Shown here in pieces: positions 1 through 31,308 of a stretch of DNA of 32,425 bases. This stretch comes from Candidatus Hydrogenedentota bacterium. GTDB lineage: Bacteria > Hydrogenedentota > Hydrogenedentia > Hydrogenedentales > CAIZGN01. The notes under the pieces are model-generated. The model was not told where the DNA came from. It saw only the letters and a program-made list of their open reading frames with translations, and searched no databases. The translations under genes and the position numbers were made by a program. How positions within the stretch are numbered: position 1 is the first letter of the stretch; the number at the start of each line of letters is the position of its first letter. The stretch lies in contig CAIZGN010000235.1 of the NCBI GenBank assembly GCA_903932505.1, forward strand, positions 1 through 32,425. The letters are read 5' to 3'.

Positions 1-59
1 AAAGCCCCTGCTCCTGTGCGAACGTCCATTTGAGCGCGCAATACGATTGTTAAGCATGT

Positions 60-620
60 TCATTGTCCCTGACCTCCCGGTTGCCGTTGTCCTCCGCCTC
101 GCGGACCCCGTTTATCGCGCATATCCTGTAGGCGCGCGTCCAACCTCGCCTGCTGATCAGGCGTCATCTTGCTGCGTACTTCTTCCATCCGTCCACCGCC
201 CATGCCGGGAGGGCCTCCGCCCGGACCACCCGGGCCTCGGGGGCCACCGCCACCGGGGCCGAAGCCCGGAGCCGATTCCAGTTTCGCGAGTTGTTCGGGT
301 GTGAGAATCTTGGCCAGTTCTTCGCGCATGGCCTCGCGTCGGCCGCGAAAACCACCCTGGCCCGGATCGCCCATGGATTGCAGCAATTGCGCGATCTGTT
401 GCGTCTGTTCTTCGCTCAGCCCCAGTCGGTCCCGCATTTCCTCGGCGCGTTGACGGGCAAGAATCTCATCTTGCCGCTCCGGATGGGCCTCAAGTTCTGA
501 GGGGCCGGACGGGCGGGTGTTCTTTAGTCCCATGTAGGCGAGATAGCCGACGAACAGCACCAGATAGACCACCCCGAGTCCGGCCAAGACTTGCTTGATT
601 CCAATTTTCTTTGTTTTCAT
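60..620 (-). CDS. Spy/CpxP-like membrane-anchored protein with LTxxQ-type repeats
   Basis: A 186-residue protein with one N-terminal hydrophobic segment (about residues 10-33), best read as a signal anchor that puts the rest in the periplasm. The soluble part is charged and helical. It has three helix-start motifs of the Spy/CpxP LTxxQ kind: LSEEQ near residue 68, LTPEQ near 107 and MTPDQ near 152. A glycine/proline-rich linker (about 120-143) separates the second from the third, and the tail is rich in Gly, Arg and Gln. Family knowledge: Spy/CpxP proteins are periplasmic chaperones or metal/stress sensors. Here the protein is tethered instead of secreted, so a sensor role is equally possible. 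The ATG is preceded by an AAGGA box. It diverges from the phosphoesterase gene. The assignment rests on motif spacing and composition only. Confidence 0.6.
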   Translation of the reverse strand: MKTKKIGIKQVLAGLGVVYLVLFVGYLAYMGLKNTRPSGPSELEAHPERQDEILARQRAEEMRDRLGLSEEQTQQIAQLLQSMGDPGQGGFRGRREAMREELAKILTPEQLAKLESAPGFGPGGGGPRGPGGPGGGPPGMGGGRMEEVRSKMTPDQQARLDARLQDMRDKRGPRGGGQRQPGGQGQ

Positions 621-698
621 GAGCCCCGTTCCTTATAGTAACTCTTGCAACAATGTGGACAGTGTGCGGGAATTTGTTACACGGAGCGACGGCAGGCC

Positions 699-1214
699 AT
701 GCGAATAGGCGTCATGAGCGATACCCACGGCAACCTTGAATTCATGTTTCATGCGACAGACGCCTTGGTGCGTGAGCATGGGGCGACGGTTCTGTTCCAC
801 CTGGGTGATGATTATCGGGACGCGGAATCCCTGCGCAGGGCCGGGCATGAGGTGCGGGCGGTTCCGGGCTTGTGGTGTCCGGAATATGAGCGAAACCGGG
901 TTCCAAGGCGGTTGCTGGAACATTTCGACGGGGTTTCCATCGCCTGCGCGCACGCGCTGGAGGAGATCACCGGAAGCGACCGCCGATCGGACATCCTGCT
1001 ACACGGTCACACCCACCGCCCCGCCATTCAGGAGCGCGACCATTCAATCGTTTTCAATCCGGGGCACCTCAAGGAGCATCGGTCACGCGGCCAAATCGCG
1101 TCCTACGGACTGATCAACATCGAGGAAAAACACCTGTCCTTTTTCGTCTACCGGATTGACGGACTCATGGTGCAGCAACGCCGTCAACCGCGAAAGCCAC
1201 CGGTGGAAGAATAG
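699..1214 (+). CDS. YfcE/MJ0936-type calcineurin-like metallophosphoesterase
   Basis: A 171-residue single-domain phosphoesterase. Visible metal-site motifs are SDTHGN (residues 7-12), HLGDD (34-38) and HGHTHRP (102-108), followed by FNPGH (119-123). Family members hydrolyse phosphodiesters with two divalent metals, usually manganese, in the cytoplasm. The usual GN[CH]D block after the second strand reads PGLWC here, so the Asn metal ligand is not at its normal place, and the NPGS block is NPGH. The enzyme may have altered metal use or specificity. An open frame extends 18 codons upstream, but this ATG begins exactly at the conserved first strand and has a GGAG about 12 bases before it. It converges with the ABC permease, leaving about nine bases between the stops. 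The substrate cannot be read from context. Confidence 0.8.
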   Translation: MRIGVMSDTHGNLEFMFHATDALVREHGATVLFHLGDDYRDAESLRRAGHEVRAVPGLWCPEYERNRVPRRLLEHFDGVSIACAHALEEITGSDRRSDILLHGHTHRPAIQERDHSIVFNPGHLKEHRSRGQIASYGLINIEEKHLSFFVYRIDGLMVQQRRQPRKPPVEE

Positions 1215-1223
1215 GGTGGGCGG

Positions 1224-2186
1224 CTACAGATCCTTGAGCAGACCGGCCTTGCGTTTGCGGTAGTTGTCGTAGAAGACCAGCAGCACGACCAGCACCCCCA
1301 CATAAACCTGCTGCCAATTGGTGTCGAAATTCATGAGGTTGCAGAAGTTGCGCAGCACCATGATGATGAGCGCACCGGCGAGTGCAGCCGCCGCACCGCC
1401 TTCTCCGCCCATCAGGCTTGCGCCGCCAATCACACAACCCGCGATGGCGTCCAGTTCCATCATTTCGGCACCGGTGGGGTTGCCAATGCTGGTGCGTGAT
1501 GCCAGCACCACCCCGCCCACACCCACGAGCATCCCGCATAGTGCATAGGCCCCCGTGCGTACCCGATCAACGGGGATACCGGACAGTCGGGCCGCCTGCA
1601 GGTTTCCGCCCAAGGCATAGATTGACCGCCCGAAACCGGTGAAGGTAAGCATGACGGAGAAAAAGATCGTGATTGAAACGGCGAGAAGAACGGGTACCCA
1701 CCACGCCGTGCCACCCCCCTCCAGCACCTTCGAACCACCCAGCCACTGGAAGGACTTCACGAGCACAACGATGGGGCAGGATTTGGCGATCAGCAGGGCC
1801 GCGCCACGTGCGGCCATCATCGTGCCCAAGGTCGCGATAAACGGGGGAATGCGGCCCTTCGTCACCAGAAGACCGTTGATGGTGCCGCAGAAAAGGCCCG
1901 CCAGAATGCCAAGCAATACCCCCACTGGCACAGGCAGACCCCAGTCGGTCATGGCTTTCGCGGCGATGACGCCCGCAAGAGCCGCCACACTGCCCACGGA
2001 CAGGTCAATACCCGCCGTCAGGATCACGAGGAGTTCGCCGACCGCGATGATGCCGGTCACACAGGTGCGCCCGCCCACATCCTGAAGATTGTTCAGGCGA
2101 CGAAAATCTTGGGAGACGACCGCCATGGCCAGACAAAGACCAGCCAGAATGATCAGGGGAGAATGACGCGCCAGAAACCTCTTCAT
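1224..2186 (-). CDS. Ribose/simple-sugar-type ABC transporter permease (RbsC-like)
   Basis: A 320-residue polytopic inner-membrane protein of the BPD_transp_2 family (RbsC, XylH, AraH). The signature ILTAGIDLSVGS lies near residues 53-64, and the cytoplasmic coupling loop GGNLQAARLSGIPVDR matches the family block that contacts the ATPase. About eight to ten hydrophobic segments are visible. The start was placed at ATG 2186 because AAGGA lies about six bases upstream; a longer frame adds 11 residues that look untranslated. It is the last gene of a same-strand group after a Gfo/Idh dehydrogenase (29-base gap) and a fucose-isomerase-like gene, which suggests import of a monosaccharide or polyol. 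Neither the RbsA-type ATPase nor a periplasmic binding protein is adjacent, so those subunits must be encoded elsewhere. Confidence 0.9.
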   Translation of the reverse strand: MKRFLARHSPLIILAGLCLAMAVVSQDFRRLNNLQDVGGRTCVTGIIAVGELLVILTAGIDLSVGSVAALAGVIAAKAMTDWGLPVPVGVLLGILAGLFCGTINGLLVTKGRIPPFIATLGTMMAARGAALLIAKSCPIVVLVKSFQWLGGSKVLEGGGTAWWVPVLLAVSITIFFSVMLTFTGFGRSIYALGGNLQAARLSGIPVDRVRTGAYALCGMLVGVGGVVLASRTSIGNPTGAEMMELDAIAGCVIGGASLMGGEGGAAAALAGALIIMVLRNFCNLMNFDTNWQQVYVGVLVVLLVFYDNYRKRKAGLLKDL

Positions 2187-2215
2187 GCATGTCCTTTCAG
2201 TAGATGCGGGTGCGC

Positions 2216-22400: not shown

Positions 22401-23501
22401 CTACTTCTTCTCATCCTCAGGAGCAGCGATTGACACGTCCTCTTCCGGCTTGTCCTTGTTCCCGGCGGCCTTGGACTTCGGGGCCGCCAAGGCCTGAATA
22501 CCATAGGTTTTCAGCAAGGCGTTGATGTCAGTCGTGCGCAGATCCAGTCCGCCGTCGCCCATGGGAATCATGATAATCCGCTTGCCCGTCAGGGCCTCCG
22601 CGACCTTCATTTTCACCATGGCCTCGCCGCCCGAACCGGACAACGCTTCGTTCATTTTCATCATGCCTTGGGCCTCGGCGGTACCTTCTGCAATAATGGC
22701 CTCAGCAATGCGTTGCTGCTTGGCAAACACGGCGTCCGCCTCGATGACCGCGCGACGATATTCACCGTCTGCCTTCTCTCGCATCTTGGCGACATCGGCC
22801 TTCGCCGTCTCCACCAAGGTCTCGAATTCGGCAAATTTGGCCGCTGTTTCGGATTTTGTTTTCTCAGCCTCTTGGTCGGCCACCTTCTTGTCCTCGATCG
22901 CCTTTTCATACTCGGGCTTGAACTTGTAGTTGCCCAGATTGATGCGGTCGATCACAATCCCGTAGCTGCTCAAGATATCGTTCAGCACCTTTTTAACCTC
23001 TTCCGCCTTTTCCAGCCGCTTTTCACTGACGTAGAAGTCTTCCGTGCGCAGTGCGCCGAAGATGTCGCGTGGCTTGCTTCTCGCTATGCCGCGCATGATG
23101 TGCTCCTTCAACTCCTCATCATCACGGGCGATCGTTTGCAAAATCATGGGGGCCTTTTCGGGCACCACCCGGTATTGCACCGTCAGATCAAGGCCGATGT
23201 CATTGCCATCGACCGTCTTGAACATCAATTCGTCATTGCCCGGTCGATCGCCTTTTCCCATGATGGCGGTCATCTCGAGCTTTTCCAAACGGGTGTCAAA
23301 TGTGTTCCAATCGGTGATGAACAACGGCAGAAAGACGGTCTGCCCCGGAGGCGTGATTTCCTGCTGAACGCCTTTGTTGCCAAAGGGTGACCATTTGATC
23401 GTACGCACGCCCACTTCCGTCGAACCCGTCGAATACGGCATGCAACCGGAAAGGAGCGAAGTCGTCAGCAATGCGCCGAATAACGCGCTAATGGGCTTCA
23501 T
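22401..23501 (-). CDS. SPFH/prohibitin-domain lipoprotein
   Basis: A 366-residue SPFH-domain protein that starts with a lipoprotein signal peptide: MKPISALFGALLTTS then lipobox LLSGC with C20 as the lipidated residue. The next residue is Met, not Asp, so by the enterobacterial rule it would not be held in the inner membrane. The SPFH fold covers about 28-235 (ITPPGQTVFLPLF, DGNDIGLDLTVQYRV, YGIVIDRINLGNYKF), followed by a long Lys/Glu/Ala-rich coiled helix (210-290) and a charged tail. Its end (LDLRTTDINALLKTYGIQ) is similar to the matching region of its upstream neighbour, so the two are paralogues. Most SPFH proteins are anchored by a membrane helix or hairpin, so a lipid-anchored periplasmic form is odd. 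Its ATG overlaps the upstream SPFH stop by four bases. Confidence 0.85.
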   Translation of the reverse strand: MKPISALFGALLTTSLLSGCMPYSTGSTEVGVRTIKWSPFGNKGVQQEITPPGQTVFLPLFITDWNTFDTRLEKLEMTAIMGKGDRPGNDELMFKTVDGNDIGLDLTVQYRVVPEKAPMILQTIARDDEELKEHIMRGIARSKPRDIFGALRTEDFYVSEKRLEKAEEVKKVLNDILSSYGIVIDRINLGNYKFKPEYEKAIEDKKVADQEAEKTKSETAAKFAEFETLVETAKADVAKMREKADGEYRRAVIEADAVFAKQQRIAEAIIAEGTAEAQGMMKMNEALSGSGGEAMVKMKVAEALTGKRIIMIPMGDGGLDLRTTDINALLKTYGIQALAAPKSKAAGNKDKPEEDVSIAAPEDEKK

Positions 23502-24826
23502 TGGACCACCTCCTTCACTTCGCCTTCGACGATGACAATGGCTTCGCCTTCGGTAGCGACTCCACCTTCTGGCTTATATTCCGCAGGTGGCGTGTCGCTG
23601 CCCGGCGGTGGCACAAACTCAGGGAAGACCTCGGGAACGGCCGGCGTCACGGGTTTATCCAACGCGGCTGCGCTCTCCGGTAAAGGAGGCAGAATCATGG
23701 CCGCTTGCGGTGTTCCCGAACTGCCATCCAGGCCGGCCCCAAACATCTTCAGCATCGCCGTCAAATCGAGCGGATTCAGATTCGACGAACCACCGGCCGG
23801 CACCAGAATGGTGTCCAGGCCGTCCAGCACCTCCGCCATCTTCATCGCCACCGACCGCGCCGACCCTTGGGCCTGCATCGCCGCATTGGCCATTTCCGAC
23901 CGCTTGGCCTCCGCCAGCTTCACCAGCAGATCGCCTTCCGCCTTCTTCTTGCGCGTGTACAGGTCGGTCGCCGCCTTCTTTTCCACCCCGTAGGCCCGGC
24001 CCTGCTCCAGGGTAATCTGCACCTCCATCTCGCCCTTGGTGGTGACGCGATTGAGCCCCTGCTGCTGAATAGCGGCCTTGCGCATTGAGTGGTTTGTGAA
24101 AACCAGCTGATCCTGCAATTTCTTCTTCTCTATATTGTTTTGAATCGCGTCGCTATAGCGGAAATAGCGCACCAGCACCTGCTCTACCGCAATGCCCTTG
24201 TTCTGCATCTCCAGATTGAGCCGTTCCTTCGCCATCTCCGCCTTGCCCACCCGCAAAGTGCTGTCGTAGAACTCTTCCGTCGTCAACTGCCCCAACGTTT
24301 CCTTCAAGATCGGCTCCGCTTTCGGCAGGATACCCTGTTGCAGATAGCGATCCCCCGAGCCCAAACTGGTGATCACCAGATAGGGGTCGCTAATGCGATA
24401 AAGGATCGTCGCATCGATTGAAACCGAAAAACCATCCGACGTTTGAATCTTCACCGCAGGCCCATGAAACACCGACGGCCCCAACCGAACGCTTGTGGTT
24501 GTGTCGGCCGTCAGTTCAAGCACCTGTACCGTGCGCGGCAGATGATGCATCCGCTGAAAACCGAACGGCATCACAAAGGCCAACCCGGGCGGATAAACCT
24601 CCTTCTGAATACCGCGATGGCTCTCACCAAGCGCAATCTTGGACTCCATGATCCCGAATTCATAGGGCTTCACATACTCCAGGAACGTGACGTAACAACC
24701 CGCCACAACGGCAAAGCCGACCACGCCCAGAAACAAAAGCGCCTTGAGTTTACCCGGCAACATGGACCACACCGCATGGACGCGACCACCCGCGCCACCC
24801 ACAAACTCCGGACCCCGCATTGACAT
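23498..24826 (-). CDS. SPFH/prohibitin-domain membrane protein
   Basis: A 442-residue protein with one membrane helix (about 28-49, ALLFLGVVGFAVVAGCYVTF) and an SPFH domain (about 50-250). Blocks include EYVKPYEFGIMESK, EVYPPGLAFVMPFG, SDGFSVSIDATILYRI and EQVLVRYFRYSDAI. A coiled stretch (255-345, KKAEGDLLVKLAEAKRSEM) is followed by a proline-rich acidic tail (380-442). It is similar in layout to HflK, stomatin or flotillin scaffolds that order membrane proteases or lipid domains. ATG 24826 was picked among three near starts because GAGGAGG is at a proper eight to nine bases; the first ATG is only two bases from it. Upstream TATACT (minus strand, 24869-24874) may be a -10 box but no good -35 fits. 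It is coupled to the lipoprotein SPFH gene by a four-base overlap. Confidence 0.87.
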   Translation of the reverse strand: MSMRGPEFVGGAGGRVHAVWSMLPGKLKALLFLGVVGFAVVAGCYVTFLEYVKPYEFGIMESKIALGESHRGIQKEVYPPGLAFVMPFGFQRMHHLPRTVQVLELTADTTTSVRLGPSVFHGPAVKIQTSDGFSVSIDATILYRISDPYLVITSLGSGDRYLQQGILPKAEPILKETLGQLTTEEFYDSTLRVGKAEMAKERLNLEMQNKGIAVEQVLVRYFRYSDAIQNNIEKKKLQDQLVFTNHSMRKAAIQQQGLNRVTTKGEMEVQITLEQGRAYGVEKKAATDLYTRKKKAEGDLLVKLAEAKRSEMANAAMQAQGSARSVAMKMAEVLDGLDTILVPAGGSSNLNPLDLTAMLKMFGAGLDGSSGTPQAAMILPPLPESAAALDKPVTPAVPEVFPEFVPPPGSDTPPAEYKPEGGVATEGEAIVIVEGEVKEVVQ

Positions 24827-25225: not shown

Positions 25226-26851
25226 TTAGTGTTCTTTGGTGGATAGGAATATGGTGTTTCTTCCCGCGTCGTCGGTGTCGTAGAGAACTTCGTCCACGGC
25301 CTGCTTGATTATGCTAAGGCCGTATCCGCTCTCTTCCAGCGAGCCTTCCGGTGGGCGCACCACCGGTGACGGACTGTAACGGGTGCCATTATGCACCACC
25401 ATGGCTTCCATGCGGCCGGCGCAGGCGCATAGATTCAGGATGAATTCCCGGTCTGCGGCCTCGGCAAAGGAATGGCGAATCACGTTGGAAACGACTTCAT
25501 TCAGCGCCAACTCGAACCGGTCCAATTGCTCCACGCTCAACCGCAAGTCCCCCTTGGTTTGGCAGAAGTGCCGGAAGAAACGCCGAACTTCGGCTAGCTG
25601 GGCAAGTTGTGCCGGAAAAACGCGCTCCGATCGGCATCCGCCGGGATTCTTGCAGGTTTCAACGATCCGCACGGCCACGCAAGATATGTCGTCATGCGCC
25701 TGATCATCTTTTATGTATTCGAAAAAATCCGTCCGCAATTGGCCAATGATGGCTTTTGCGGTTTTCTTATGGTTTGGAGTGACGCATTCGACCAGACGGT
25801 CTTTGCCAAAGCGTTCGCCCTCGGGATTCTCTGCCTCGGTCAAGCCGTCGGAGTAGAATAGGAAGAAATCCCCTTTTTGAAAGGGAACTACGACCTCCTG
25901 GATGTTGTCCAACTCGGAGAAACCAACAGGCATATTGTTTCCCTTGAGATAGATGGGCGCGTCTTGGTCAGAATTCCAATGAACAGTCGGCGTGTGTCCG
26001 CAATCCACGAAGGTCATGGTGCTTCGAAAGAGATCGAAACGGGCGTAGCACAGCGTTACAAACGCCTCCAGTTTTGCCAAGCGGGCGGCGATATTGGCGA
26101 CAACGAGGGAAATTACTTTTTGGGGCGAGGGAAGATCATTCATGGTGCAGCCGCGGTTGAGTTCAAATAGCGCGCGGAAGATTTCCGAGATCAGAGCGGA
26201 TCCCGTGAGCGCGGCGGAAACCCCCCGCCCCATCACATCGCCGACGATGACATCAATGCACTTTGGTCCATGGTGGATAAAGTAGCAAATATCCCCGTTG
26301 ACATACATCGAAGGAACGGCGAACGCGCCAATATCCAAACCGGCTATATTTGCCGGGGGATTGCGAAGGAGTAGTGTTTTTTGAACATCAGCGGCAATCT
26401 CATGCTCGCGCTGAAGCAGCTCAGCAAGGCTCCGCTCTGCATTGCGGAGTCGGCGGGCTTGCAGGGTGGCCTTGGCGGCCCGGTCCACATGCGTCAGGAA
26501 CAATTCGATGTCTATGGGTTTAATAATATAGTCGAAAGCGCCCTTCTTCACGGCCTCCACAACGGTGCGCACATCGCTGATGGCCGTCACCACGATGCAG
26601 GAAATTTCCGGGTGGTAGGTCTGAACGTACTCCAGGCATTCAATGCCGCCGCAGCCTGGCATGTTGAGATCGAGCAGCACGACCGTCACATCATCGGAGA
26701 GCCGACTAATCGCGTCAATGCCATTATCTACGGCGATGGTTCGGTAGCCTTCCTCGGTAAGGTTATATTCCAGGAGCATTCTGACATGCGGATCGTCCTC
26801 AGCGATTAGCGCAATGTGTTCTGCGGTCTTATTAGGGCGATCACCGGGCAT
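25226..26851 (-). CDS. Receiver-PP2C phosphatase-serine kinase regulator (CrsR/HsbR-like)
   Basis: A 541-residue cytoplasmic protein with three output-linked domains. The receiver (about 12-130) has acidic pocket E18-D20, phospho-acceptor D61 in LLDLNMPG and K111. A short coiled linker precedes the SpoIIE/RsbU-type PP2C domain (about 170-397), with NGDICYF (185-191), GDVMGRG (204-210), FYSDGLTEA (332-340) and HDDIS (386-390) supplying metal-binding aspartates. A RsbW-like ATPase domain ends the chain (about 410-538), with FELALNEVVSNVIRH (446-460) as N box and ESGYGLSIIKQAVDE. The same order is known in Shewanella CrsR and Pseudomonas HsbR, which switch a STAS-type anti-sigma antagonist. No STAS or sigma gene is in the window. 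It follows the large kinase by 68 bases; the kinase is its likely phosphodonor. The ATG has GAGGAGAG at about eight bases. Confidence 0.93.
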   Translation of the reverse strand: MPGDRPNKTAEHIALIAEDDPHVRMLLEYNLTEEGYRTIAVDNGIDAISRLSDDVTVVLLDLNMPGCGGIECLEYVQTYHPEISCIVVTAISDVRTVVEAVKKGAFDYIIKPIDIELFLTHVDRAAKATLQARRLRNAERSLAELLQREHEIAADVQKTLLLRNPPANIAGLDIGAFAVPSMYVNGDICYFIHHGPKCIDVIVGDVMGRGVSAALTGSALISEIFRALFELNRGCTMNDLPSPQKVISLVVANIAARLAKLEAFVTLCYARFDLFRSTMTFVDCGHTPTVHWNSDQDAPIYLKGNNMPVGFSELDNIQEVVVPFQKGDFFLFYSDGLTEAENPEGERFGKDRLVECVTPNHKKTAKAIIGQLRTDFFEYIKDDQAHDDISCVAVRIVETCKNPGGCRSERVFPAQLAQLAEVRRFFRHFCQTKGDLRLSVEQLDRFELALNEVVSNVIRHSFAEAADREFILNLCACAGRMEAMVVHNGTRYSPSPVVRPPEGSLEESGYGLSIIKQAVDEVLYDTDDAGRNTIFLSTKEH

Positions 26852-26919: not shown

Positions 26920-29900
26920 TCATTGAAGATCCGATAAATTCAAGTTCGCGGGCAGGCGAACGGTAAAGATGGTTCCTTTGCCGACTGTACTCTCAACCTC
27001 AATGCCTCCGCCTTGAAACTCAACCAGTTCCTTGGCAATGGCAAGTCCCAGACCGGTTCCGCCGACTCGAGCGCCGGGATACTGGCCCCGGAAGAAGCGC
27101 TCAAAGACATGCGGCAGGTCGGCGGGGAGAATACCCACGCCCGTGTCACTGACTCGAAAGACCATCCAATGGTCATCTTGGTGTACCTCCACTTCGACCG
27201 TGCCCCCGGAGACAGTAAATTTCAGGGCGTTGCCCAGAAGATTGAGCAGGATGGCGCGCGTTTTTCCGGGATCGCAGTAAAAGGGCTGCAGATGGGCGGC
27301 CACACTTACATTGAGCGTGATATTTAGACGCTCTGCTTCCAGACGCATACCGGCCAACATTTGGCGCACAAAAAGCTCGGGAGTCACGCGCACGGAATGC
27401 AATACGATTTTCCCTGATTCGAGGCGCGAGATTTCCAGAATATCTTCCACGAGCAGGTGCAAATGGTTCGCTTCCTCCGCGATGATGTCCAGAAAAGAAG
27501 CGCGCCGTTCGGGGAGCATATCGGGGTCGCGAAGGAGTGTTGCGGCAAATCCCTTGATTGAGGTGAGCGGCAAACGGAGCTCATGGGAAACGGATGACAC
27601 GAAGTTGGTCTTCATCCTGTCCACCTCGCGCTCCTTGGTAATGTCGTGGAAAATGAGGACATGGCCGGCATGCCGCCCGGATTCATCCGCATAGGGACTG
27701 CTGGTGACCCGCAAGGTGCGTGGCGCTGGGAAGGATAATTCCCAAATACGGTCTACGGCCTGCTCTTGTAATACCGCCAACAAGTCGGCCTTAGGGAGAA
27801 TTTCTTCGTCGAGGAATTCTTCCAGTGTAACGGTTCCTGTCTGGGGTGTTTTTGCAAACAACAAGTCTTCTGCCACATCGTTGGTCAAGAGGATGGTGTG
27901 GTTCAAATCTATCACAATGATACCGTTGCCTATGCCTCTCAGGATAAGTTCCCTCTGAATGGCTTCGGTTCTAATCCGGGACTCGATTTGCTTGCGTGCG
28001 GTAATATCCCGCATGGTTCCCACTACCTTGATTAGGCTGCCAGCTTCACCTGACAAGGGCCGCATATTGAGGGAGCATACAACCGCCCGGCCCTCGGCGT
28101 GCTTCAGGGTGATTTCATAGTCCGCAACGTGCTTTCCGGGTGACAGGGCGTCGGGGCTTGGTGTTTGTTTTGGGGCAAGAAACCAGGCGTCGGTCATGGC
28201 TTTCCCGATCACCGATTCCCGGGCGTAGCCGAGCATATCGCTCACCGAGGGCGAAACCTCCACCACAATACCCTCCGGCGATGTCTCAAAATATACATCG
28301 AGCATGCTCTCAAATATTGAACGGTAGCGTTCCTCGCTCTTGCGCAACGTCTCGGCGGCCAGAATCCGAGCGGTGATGTCAATGTGCATTCCAGTCATAC
28401 GCATCGGCTCTTCCGTGGCAGATCGGTGTGTGATACGTCCCCGGTCGTGAACCCACACCCATGATCCGTTTTTGTGCATCATCCGGTATTCACAATCGAA
28501 TTGAGGGGAATGTCCGCTGAAATGCAGCTCCAATAACCGGTTAAGGTGCGCCAGATCGCCAGGATAGCAAAACTGCAGCCAAGTGTCGACAGTGGTCGGC
28601 GCCAATTCCTCCAGGGCGCATCCGACGATTTCGGCCCAACGGGCATTGAACGTGGTTTCTCCGGTGAGAATGTTCCATTCCCAAGTGCCGGCATTGGTGC
28701 CCGCGATGATGTCGCCAAGCGTCGCTGTGCGGTTTCGTAATGTTTCTTCCGATTGTTTGCGTAGCTGAATATTGACCAGCATCTGCGCGAATATGCCGAG
28801 CAAATTCAACTCATCCTCGGAATAGAGGTGATGGTGGAGCACGGAATCGAAACCGACAAACCCGATACAACTGTCATTGACCCGCATGGGAACAGCCAAA
28901 AGGCTCTTGATGTCTTGCGGGGCGAGAATATCGCGCAATCGGCACTTTGGAAGCGCCAACACATCGGGAATATACATTGGCTCCCCGCGCAGGTGGGTTT
29001 CCACCCAATCGGGCACTGCGGCAAGCGGCACCTCCTGCAATAAGTCAATCTGCGGCGTCACCCTATCGTTGTACCATTCGTGGGTATTGGAGCAGGTCTC
29101 ATTCTCAAAATCGTACTGAAAAATGTAGGCGCGGTCAGCCCCCACGAAACTTGCCATTTCACCCAGGGAATCCTGAATCGCGGATTCCAGCGCACCGACA
29201 GGCAGGTTGATGTATTTTGAGGATATCTCCATCATCAACTTTCGCAATTGCAACTGGAGTTCCAGCGCTTCTTCGGCGCGTTTCCTTTCCGTACAATCGC
29301 GAACAACGCAGGTCCAGGCCGTACCCCGCCTTTCCACGTCCTCGAAACATGTCACGCTCAATTCAAGCCAACGCGGTTGTGCGGGGGAATCATGATGGAA
29401 TTCCACGGTGGACATATCGCCAGCGGTGGCCGCTTCGCTCAACGCGCGCCGCAGGGCACCGTGAGCGTCCTCTGGTAATCCGACCTCATCCATATGTTTT
29501 CCCAGCGGGCTTTCGTCCATCGGTAATAGGGTCGCCTTCGGAGGGTGGTAATACCGAAGAAAGAGGCCGTCTTGGTCCAGAACGAATACGACATGATTCA
29601 TGCTCTGAATAATCAAGCGCAGCCGCTGTTTGCTATCCTGGAGCGAGAGGGTTCGCCGGACAATCAGCCGTTCCAACCTGCCCCGATGCGCGGTGGTCAT
29701 GGAGACCAACCATGAGACGACAAGGGTGACCAAGATGCCCGCGCCAAATACAATCCAGGGCAAACGTACCGGATAGGCGCTGACAAATGCTGGCGCAGGT
29801 CTCGCCACAAGGAGAAAGGACTGACTGAACTCCAAAATGGGGAAGGAAAATGAAAATAGCGGCTGGGGCGAGTCGCCGGTGGATAGTCTGGGGGATGAAG

Positions 29901-31308
29901 CCAGGAGTTCACGGGGGTCTTGCTCCATCACGCGGAATAGTTGGAGCGAAATGGTGTGCTGTTCGGGCTGCGCCCTTTTCTCAAATTCGAGGGCATTTCC
30001 AAGATGCAAGACTGCGGCCACTAGACCACGCGGGCGGTGCGGATCGAGCTTCTCGAACACCGGCCGGAAAACCAAAATGCCCGCACCCGGGTCTTGCCCG
30101 CGCAGCACGGGAGGTGGCTCCGCGCTAGTCACAAGTCCGGTCGCCATGGCCCTGTCAATCGCCTGTCGTGTCTCGGATTCCGAACCAAGGTCATAGCCAA
30201 TGGCCTCTTCGTTTCTGTGGATTGGTTCCGCCGTGAACACTGGGTATGCGATTTCGTTTGCAGGCACGGGCACACGCTGGCCGTCTGCACCCGTCCTCCA
30301 TATTCCAAATCCTGAAATACCCTGCGCTTGGGCGTCTTGTTCAACACGGGCGCGGTCTTCGGGGGGAACGTATGGAATCCACACCAACGCTTGGATCCCC
30401 GAGTTGCCTCTCAATGCCCCTGAATAGTTGGCTATTGCACTTCGGGATGCCGTTGGAGACTCTTCCAAAAGCAACCCCAAGCCCTCCAGCCAACTATGCG
30501 CCATCCCGCCAAAGATTTTACCGATTCCCGCAGCATAGGAATGCGCCAATTCATAAAACACGTTCTGCCGATCCACCCTATCATGGATATGGACGATCCA
30601 AGTGGCGGTCAGCGTCAATATTAACCCTGCGACCCCTACCGTCCATGCTTCGAGGGATTCAAAGCGTTTGGTGCGCTGCCGAATAACAAAGAACCCTGTG
30701 GTAAGTGCGACCAAAAGGGCCGTCAACACAATCACTGGAAGCGCGAAAGGCAACAAGAGTTGGATCCGCACGGTTGCGTCCAGATCAACGCCTAGTACGG
30801 CCTGGGGGGTATTGGTTTGCGGATCCATGATGGGGACAAAGGCAGAGATCCAAGTGCCCCAACGGTCCGGAATAGGGCCCTCAAGACTCTCCTCGCCGGA
30901 GTCAAAAACATGTTGAATCGCAGCTGAGGCTTCCTCATAGGGCTGACCTGGATAGGAATAGCTCGGAGAGTCGGCAGGTTCACTGTCAACGTAGAAAAAA
31001 ACGGTTTCCGCATCCCGTCGGCCCATGAGGTAGATGAAACGCCACTTAGGGGCCGCCCGCCGTATCGCAATAAACTGGGATTTCAGCGTTTGATAGCCCG
31101 GTGAATCGAGATCCCCTTTGCCCCCGGACAGCCCCCGGATTTGTTCGCAATCCAAGGCCAGCGACAGCAGTTGCGCCTGACGCATCAAATCCTCGCGCGT
31201 TTGCCGTTGCGCCATATCGGCCAAATGCCAGCCACAAACGGTGCCCACGGCCACGATCAGGGCGTTAAGCGCCACAAGCATCCAGAATCTTGGAAACGAA
31301 CGTAACAT
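26920..31308 (-). CDS. Multi-sensor histidine kinase (Cache-like, CHASE, PAS, GAF, PAS x3)
   Basis: A 1462-residue membrane kinase. TM1 (9-30) and TM2 (183-208) flank a Cache-like extracytoplasmic domain with RFIYLMGRRD and DSEPADSPSYSYPGQPYEEA. TM3 (222-241) and TM4 (515-537) flank a CHASE domain (about 245-505, with YPVFTAEPIHRNEEAIGYDL). In the cytoplasm follow PAS (562-680), GAF (690-850, DRAYIFQYDFE and LLAVPMRVNDSCIGFVGFDS), PAS-type repeats (865-985, 995-1115 and 1120-1225), HisKA with H1242 in SHELRLPLTS, and the ATPase domain with NLLGNALKF (1356-1364), DTGVG (1388-1392) and GGTGLGLAIA (1416-1425). There is no receiver domain. Two tandem extracytoplasmic sensors suggest integration of several ligands with cytoplasmic redox or small-molecule cues. 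It precedes the receiver-PP2C gene. The ATG has only a weak ribosome-binding site. Confidence 0.93.
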   Translation of the reverse strand: MLRSFPRFWMLVALNALIVAVGTVCGWHLADMAQRQTREDLMRQAQLLSLALDCEQIRGLSGGKGDLDSPGYQTLKSQFIAIRRAAPKWRFIYLMGRRDAETVFFYVDSEPADSPSYSYPGQPYEEASAAIQHVFDSGEESLEGPIPDRWGTWISAFVPIMDPQTNTPQAVLGVDLDATVRIQLLLPFALPVIVLTALLVALTTGFFVIRQRTKRFESLEAWTVGVAGLILTLTATWIVHIHDRVDRQNVFYELAHSYAAGIGKIFGGMAHSWLEGLGLLLEESPTASRSAIANYSGALRGNSGIQALVWIPYVPPEDRARVEQDAQAQGISGFGIWRTGADGQRVPVPANEIAYPVFTAEPIHRNEEAIGYDLGSESETRQAIDRAMATGLVTSAEPPPVLRGQDPGAGILVFRPVFEKLDPHRPRGLVAAVLHLGNALEFEKRAQPEQHTISLQLFRVMEQDPRELLASSPRLSTGDSPQPLFSFSFPILEFSQSFLLVARPAPAFVSAYPVRLPWIVFGAGILVTLVVSWLVSMTTAHRGRLERLIVRRTLSLQDSKQRLRLIIQSMNHVVFVLDQDGLFLRYYHPPKATLLPMDESPLGKHMDEVGLPEDAHGALRRALSEAATAGDMSTVEFHHDSPAQPRWLELSVTCFEDVERRGTAWTCVVRDCTERKRAEEALELQLQLRKLMMEISSKYINLPVGALESAIQDSLGEMASFVGADRAYIFQYDFENETCSNTHEWYNDRVTPQIDLLQEVPLAAVPDWVETHLRGEPMYIPDVLALPKCRLRDILAPQDIKSLLAVPMRVNDSCIGFVGFDSVLHHHLYSEDELNLLGIFAQMLVNIQLRKQSEETLRNRTATLGDIIAGTNAGTWEWNILTGETTFNARWAEIVGCALEELAPTTVDTWLQFCYPGDLAHLNRLLELHFSGHSPQFDCEYRMMHKNGSWVWVHDRGRITHRSATEEPMRMTGMHIDITARILAAETLRKSEERYRSIFESMLDVYFETSPEGIVVEVSPSVSDMLGYARESVIGKAMTDAWFLAPKQTPSPDALSPGKHVADYEITLKHAEGRAVVCSLNMRPLSGEAGSLIKVVGTMRDITARKQIESRIRTEAIQRELILRGIGNGIIVIDLNHTILLTNDVAEDLLFAKTPQTGTVTLEEFLDEEILPKADLLAVLQEQAVDRIWELSFPAPRTLRVTSSPYADESGRHAGHVLIFHDITKEREVDRMKTNFVSSVSHELRLPLTSIKGFAATLLRDPDMLPERRASFLDIIAEEANHLHLLVEDILEISRLESGKIVLHSVRVTPELFVRQMLAGMRLEAERLNITLNVSVAAHLQPFYCDPGKTRAILLNLLGNALKFTVSGGTVEVEVHQDDHWMVFRVSDTGVGILPADLPHVFERFFRGQYPGARVGGTGLGLAIAKELVEFQGGGIEVESTVGKGTIFTVRLPANLNLSDLQ

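Follow-up and report, generated by a model that had tools for sequence, protein, structure and literature searches.

A conserved pair of SPFH genes in Hydrogenedentota encoding a helix-anchored protein and a predicted lipoprotein, with a probable link to FtsH

In the heteromeric SPFH complexes whose structures have been solved, two paralogues occupy alternate positions (PMC12624060). The E. coli example is a cage of 24 subunits, HflK alternating with HflC, with FtsH hexamers inside; current structural work is still asking how membrane substrates get through to the enclosed FtsH (PMC12048511). HflK and HflC (TIGR01933, TIGR01932; PDB 7VHQ, 7WI3, 9CZ2) resemble the two genes described here, designated A and B, in being adjacent SPFH paralogues that face the periplasm by prediction, in the glycine-rich cytoplasmic tail of the first protein, and in their linkage to ftsH; they differ in the second subunit, which has a helix where B has a lipobox. 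Prohibitins PHB1 and PHB2 (PDB 8RRH, 9O9Z) likewise assemble into a heteromeric cage, which is associated with m-AAA proteases of the FtsH type, but they are helix-anchored, mitochondrial, and about 20% identical or less. Flotillins FLOT1 and FLOT2 form an SPFH cage on the membrane with the help of lipid modifications (PMC12624060), although on the cytosolic leaflet, with palmitoyl and myristoyl groups attached by other enzymes and no transmembrane partner. An SPFH domain behind a lipobox, as in B, is found in phage proteins (phrog_200; Stenotrophomonas phage Piffle gp89 and a protein of Desulfovibrio phage ProddE, with MLFLTAC and ITTGC), which are shorter, about 22–26% identical to B, and placed in a different clade. 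One of these two proteins is annotated as an SP-II lipoprotein, and no second SPFH gene is annotated beside them in the stretches L137 (Piffle) and L140 (ProddE). In a literature search of open-access papers, no description of an SPFH pair with a lipid-anchored partner was found; the word lipoprotein is absent from a survey of prokaryotic SPFH proteins from 2009, which covers 12 subfamilies, and an SPFH protein acting through TLR1/2, published in 2022, is not called a lipoprotein in the excerpts of that paper (PMC9872710).

The stretch of DNA analysed here (the window, 32,425 nucleotides) is one whole contig of the genome of a Candidatus Hydrogenedentota bacterium. Gene A (positions 23498–24826, minus strand) encodes a helix-anchored SPFH protein of about 442 amino acids, and gene B (22401–23501, minus strand) a predicted SPFH lipoprotein of 366 amino acids, with matches to PF01145 at E-values of 1.7e-25 and 3.2e-26, respectively. 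Three ATG codons could serve as the start of A (24832, 24826, and 24820), the one at 24826 having the best Shine–Dalgarno sequence. The start codon of B lies on the stop codon of A in an ATGA overlap at 23498–23501 (minus strand), an arrangement that points to translational coupling, so that the earlier description of two paralogous SPFH genes with a four-base overlap was correct. Upstream of the pair and also on the minus strand, the window contains a response regulator–SpoIIE phosphatase–HATPase fusion (25226–26851) and a 1462-aa histidine kinase with CHASE, PAS, and GAF domains (26920–31308), a neighbourhood that is not conserved. An operon of A and B with these signalling genes or with the window's O-antigen ligase gene was rejected for the same reason.

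Both proteins score above the Pfam cut-off for Band_7 and are modelled as an SPFH fold followed by a long helix. The AlphaFold2 model of A begins with a roughly 25-residue tail, continues with a helix at residues 27–50 (numbered in a 444-aa form), the SPFH domain, and a first coiled coil, CC1, at residues 228–321, and has a proline-rich end. The predicted cytoplasmic tail (24757–24826, minus strand) carries a GPEFVGGAGG motif common to the canonical HflK proteins of the phylum, and the transmembrane helix (approximately 24678–24755, minus strand) is seen both as a hydrophobic stretch and as a helix in the model. For B, the model (pLDDT 81.7) shows the SPFH domain behind a type II signal peptide and followed by a CC1 helix of 93 residues, compared with 94 residues in A. 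The two proteins end in related segments, NPLDLTAMLKMFG in A (approximately 23715–23780, minus strand), kept in all A proteins, and TTDINALLKTYG in B (approximately 22470–22535, minus strand), kept in all complete B proteins, with the conserved motifs NPLDLxxxLxLFG and TTDINxLLxxYG. The earlier note had suggested that this shared segment may be an assembly interface; it is real and conserved. It follows CC2 and a strand, at the place where the dome of heteromeric SPFH complexes is capped, but since this is the general cap region of SPFH proteins, it is not peculiar to the A/B pair.

The N-terminus of B, MKPISALFGALLTTSLLSGC-MPYSTG, passes the PROSITE lipoprotein rule PS51257, with a type II signal peptide at 23442–23501 (minus strand) and the lipobox LLSG-Cys20. 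The structure models show no second hydrophobic helix in B, in agreement with the original claim of a canonical lipobox and no membrane helix. No lipobox was found in A, and neither the 70 A rows of two overlapping alignments nor the 41 rows of canonical HflK/HflC contain a sequence that passes the rule; therefore, the lipobox of B is no chance by-product of SPFH N-termini. Gly19 and Cys20 are invariant in all 19 genomes of the window's order that have the pair, while the remainder of the signal peptide varies. The possibility that a shifted start site would remove the lipobox was also considered, and the start proved to be fixed, since B begins 20–26 residues before the Cys in 19/19 relatives, usually with a Shine–Dalgarno-like stretch. 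Among the wider set of homologues, the lipoprotein signal is kept as well: the Cys is present at 73 of 80 loci kept from a profile scan, 65 of the 80 B proteins pass the strict PS51257 rule, and all B proteins of a further 21 regions, which partly overlap with the 80 loci, have the lipobox Cys. LspA and Lnt are both encoded in the window's genome. With a type II signal peptide, a lipobox, a conserved Cys, and LspA in the genome, B has the attributes of a bacterial lipoprotein, and we infer from the sequence that it is lipidated at Cys20. A canonical HflC at another locus (L159, genome G036), with the N-terminus MNAKNVIAVVFLVTVIVLVFVFLGCTFVVDE, passes PS51257 and may itself have turned into a lipoprotein.

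B homologues with about 51–62% identity are present in 19 of the 60 genomes of the window's order (its own included), each adjoining an A homologue, and the A–B overlap is exactly four bases in all 19. The genes flanking the pair vary between these genomes, which indicates that A and B travel as a unit. A single-protein scan of genome contigs for relatives of the pair returned nothing, while a profile scan based on the alignment did find them, at 171 related places, 80 of which were kept as named loci. These belong to Hydrogenedentota, Thermodesulfobacteriota, Omnitrophota, Nitrospirota, Spirochaetota, and others. A lies upstream of B at 75 of the 80 named loci, and four of the other five begin at a contig end; an overlap of four bases was observed at 51 of the 68 scorable loci and of one base at nine more. 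With the Cys at 73 and A at 75 of 80 loci, a lipobox SPFH gene next to a helix-anchored one, sought across genomes, is a recurrent arrangement. The pair could have turned out to be rare or poorly conserved; it is conserved across several phyla, though patchy, occurring in about 20 of 68 genomes of the window's phylum, 27 of 194 in the order of Desulfosarcina alkanivorans, and 4 of 146 in the order of the genome carrying locus L121. At one locus (L104) an intact B is preceded by just the last codons of an A-like gene, which suggests that A has been disrupted or displaced there. At four related loci (L063, L067, L072, and L073), a conserved rhomboid protease gene (PF01694) is located near the pair, upstream on the minus strand.

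The phylogenetic analysis suggests, tentatively, that A and B constitute a separate subfamily outside HflK and HflC. In a quick tree that takes in A, B, HflK, HflC, and the phage proteins and has long branches, so that its deep joins are tentative, A and B are sister clades (support 97), each monophyletic (100 and 99), and HflK (99) and HflC (92) of the same phylum form clades apart from them, with neither A nor B falling inside either. Neither protein reaches the model cut-offs for HflK and HflC (TIGR01933, TIGR01932), B scoring 34.8 bits against a cut-off of 159.4 for HflK, and A having no match. In HflK/HflC both subunits have an N-terminal transmembrane helix, in place of which B has the lipobox; the idea that B is an HflC whose helix was swapped for a lipobox gained no support from the tree or the cut-offs. 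The best fold matches of the A and B models are the prohibitin, HflK/C, erlin, and stomatin cages. Prohibitin is the top profile match of B and the top fold match of both proteins, with HflK/C close behind by fold. Full-length superposition of the models on the cages is poor (rmsd above 10 Å), as is usual when isolated chains that each contain one very long helix are superposed.

In Hydrogenedentota, the pair and HflKC nearly exclude each other. HflK or HflC scores over the cut-off in 22 of the 60 relatives and the A/B pair is found in 19, both occurring together in only one genome (G054); the association has a Fisher p of 0.00046, uncorrected for kinship. Three families (f3, f4, and f10) each hold both states. 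FtsH is present in 57 of the 60 relatives, and the window's genome encodes the A/B pair and FtsH, with no HflKC over the cut-off. In G054, an atypical HflKC-like cluster consists of three consecutive HflK/HflC-like SPFH genes (L164). The N-terminal tail of A was compared using a strict pattern of PE, then F/V/I/W, then V/I, followed by a glycine-rich stretch; it occurs in 12 of the 19 A proteins of the window's order and in 12 HflK rows of the phylum, compared with 1 of 40 A proteins of other phyla, and of eight matches among 150 long open reading frames of the regions all but one are A. This motif, common to A and the HflK of the phylum, suggests that A occupies the HflK position. In other phyla, 27 of the 46 pair genomes reached through their loci also keep HflC. 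Since the pair and HflKC often co-exist there, replacement of HflKC would be lineage-specific; a general replacement was rejected, and the pair is not simply HflKC under another name. On contig 396 (positions 374–2377, locus L055), the window's genome has two further SPFH genes, divergent in sequence and arranged in tandem, opposite an AAA gene that we take, by eye from its sequence, to be MoxR-like. This second pair was considered as a candidate HflKC and dismissed, as the genome has no HflC match, the first gene of the pair has no NCBIfam match, and its neighbour is the MoxR-like gene.

A connection to FtsH is indicated by gene order. At six loci (L089, L114, L121, L165, L166, and L178), ftsH lies directly downstream of the pair on the same strand, and at two of them, L114 and L121, the ftsH start lies on the B stop with a four-base overlap, as does the B start on the A stop; the FtsH proteins of these two loci match TIGR01241 at 827 and 832 bits. 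The order to which L121's genome belongs yielded four carriers of the pair, and every one shows the A–B–ftsH arrangement. Adjacency of ftsH was seen at about six of roughly 100 loci, in genomes that are partly related and so not independent, and these genomes carry several ftsH copies, which makes chance adjacency more likely. Nevertheless, chance would not easily produce overlapping genes and a recurrence of the arrangement in two orders. In the window's genome, the single FtsH match is on another contig than the pair. On this basis FtsH is a probable client of the A/B pair, and binding of FtsH by A and B is predicted from genomic data. A divergent double-AAA FtsH-like gene, encoding a 1025-aa frame with two AAA modules and two peptidase M41 matches, accompanies a Cys-less A/B pair in Omnitrophota (L134, positions 1–2214, minus strand, genome G104, contig 13).

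We consider it rather probable that A and B form an inner-membrane, periplasm-facing cage around FtsH, one subunit of which is held by a lipid. A and B would alternate in a large, dome-shaped SPFH cage that sits on the inner membrane at its periplasmic side. A would be held by its transmembrane helix, with a short tail into the cytoplasm, and B by the lipid on its Cys, inserted in the outer leaflet of the same membrane. Such a cage would enclose FtsH hexamers and control the access of membrane proteins, like HflK/HflC in E. coli. It could stand in for HflKC in Hydrogenedentota, and in Thermodesulfobacteriota be an extra FtsH-linked cage beside it. Assembly of A with B and gating of substrates are proposed by analogy with the known cages. 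The matching CC1 lengths would be expected if A and B run in one cage; a published length rule for subunit number (0.1782 × length + 10.22, good to about two) gives a ring of about 27, which makes 26 the probable number of subunits, provided that the models delimit the helices correctly. Tentatively, and with somewhat less confidence than in the cage itself, one could go further and see in A/B another family of SPFH cages associated with FtsH, in addition to HflK/C and the prohibitins, with one transmembrane and one lipid-anchored subunit, displacing HflKC in part of Hydrogenedentota.

The same cage might instead organise lipids or other proteins without FtsH, in the manner of flotillins or stomatins, its ftsH neighbours being incidental. 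The patchy spread of the pair, the majority of loci without an adjoining ftsH, and the many genomes that have both the pair and HflKC would agree with this, but it leaves the overlap of B with ftsH in two genomes, ftsH downstream at six loci, and the near-exclusion with HflKC in Hydrogenedentota unaccounted for, and the predicted periplasmic orientation is unlike that of flotillins; we regard it as unlikely. Still less credible is that A and B are separate homo-oligomers merely encoded in one operon. Single-protein SPFH rings such as QmcA and stomatin do exist; however, the pairing and the overlap are kept across phyla, and sister paralogues with equal CC1 length are what the known heteromeric cages have.

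The earlier note also raised the possibility that B reaches the outer membrane, its lipidated Cys being followed by Met, which would make A and B a trans-envelope complex with A in the inner membrane. Indeed, in the B rows passing PS51257 the Cys is followed by V, M, I, L, F, A, W, H, or T and never by Asp, and Lnt is present. However, the rule by which Asp after the Cys directs lipoprotein sorting is established for enterobacteria only, and it was not relied on. Cys is the majority state among B proteins, and seven lack the lipobox Cys: five belong to one Omnitrophota/Spirochaetota group with a plain hydrophobic stretch, L128 has Thr in its place, and in L120 either a helix or an ordinary signal peptide could account for the hydrophobic stretch present. 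In the Omnitrophota/Spirochaetota group, the B of L101 has a Cys with no small residue before it, and that of L129 is cut at its start. A tree of B built without the N-terminus implies about three changes between the Cys and a hydrophobic N-terminal segment; being unrooted, it gives no direction, and the three may mix gains and losses. The switched B genes are still paired with the same A, so the lipid and the hydrophobic segment look interchangeable by sequence, which fits a position at the inner membrane. In addition, the SPFH domain of B begins a few residues past the Cys, as in SPFH subunits that lie on the membrane. Together with the ftsH linkage, the anchor exchanges favour the inner membrane and speak against bridging to the outer one, which we regard as very improbable.

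The earlier observation holds, and it extends beyond the single window: the pair does have two anchoring modes, and assembly of A with B is plausible. A probable role can be proposed for a conserved gene pair for which no published function was found, present in several phyla and in the completely sequenced Desulfosarcina alkanivorans. If the proposed inner-membrane cage around FtsH is correct, a lipid on every second subunit would leave half of the ring without a part in the membrane core or the cytoplasm. Because of this lipid-held half, substrates may be able to slip beneath the cage and reach FtsH, or the cage may open more easily. A cage with one lipid-anchored subunit, together with lineages that switch anchors, would allow the purpose of the helices in such cages to be addressed directly.
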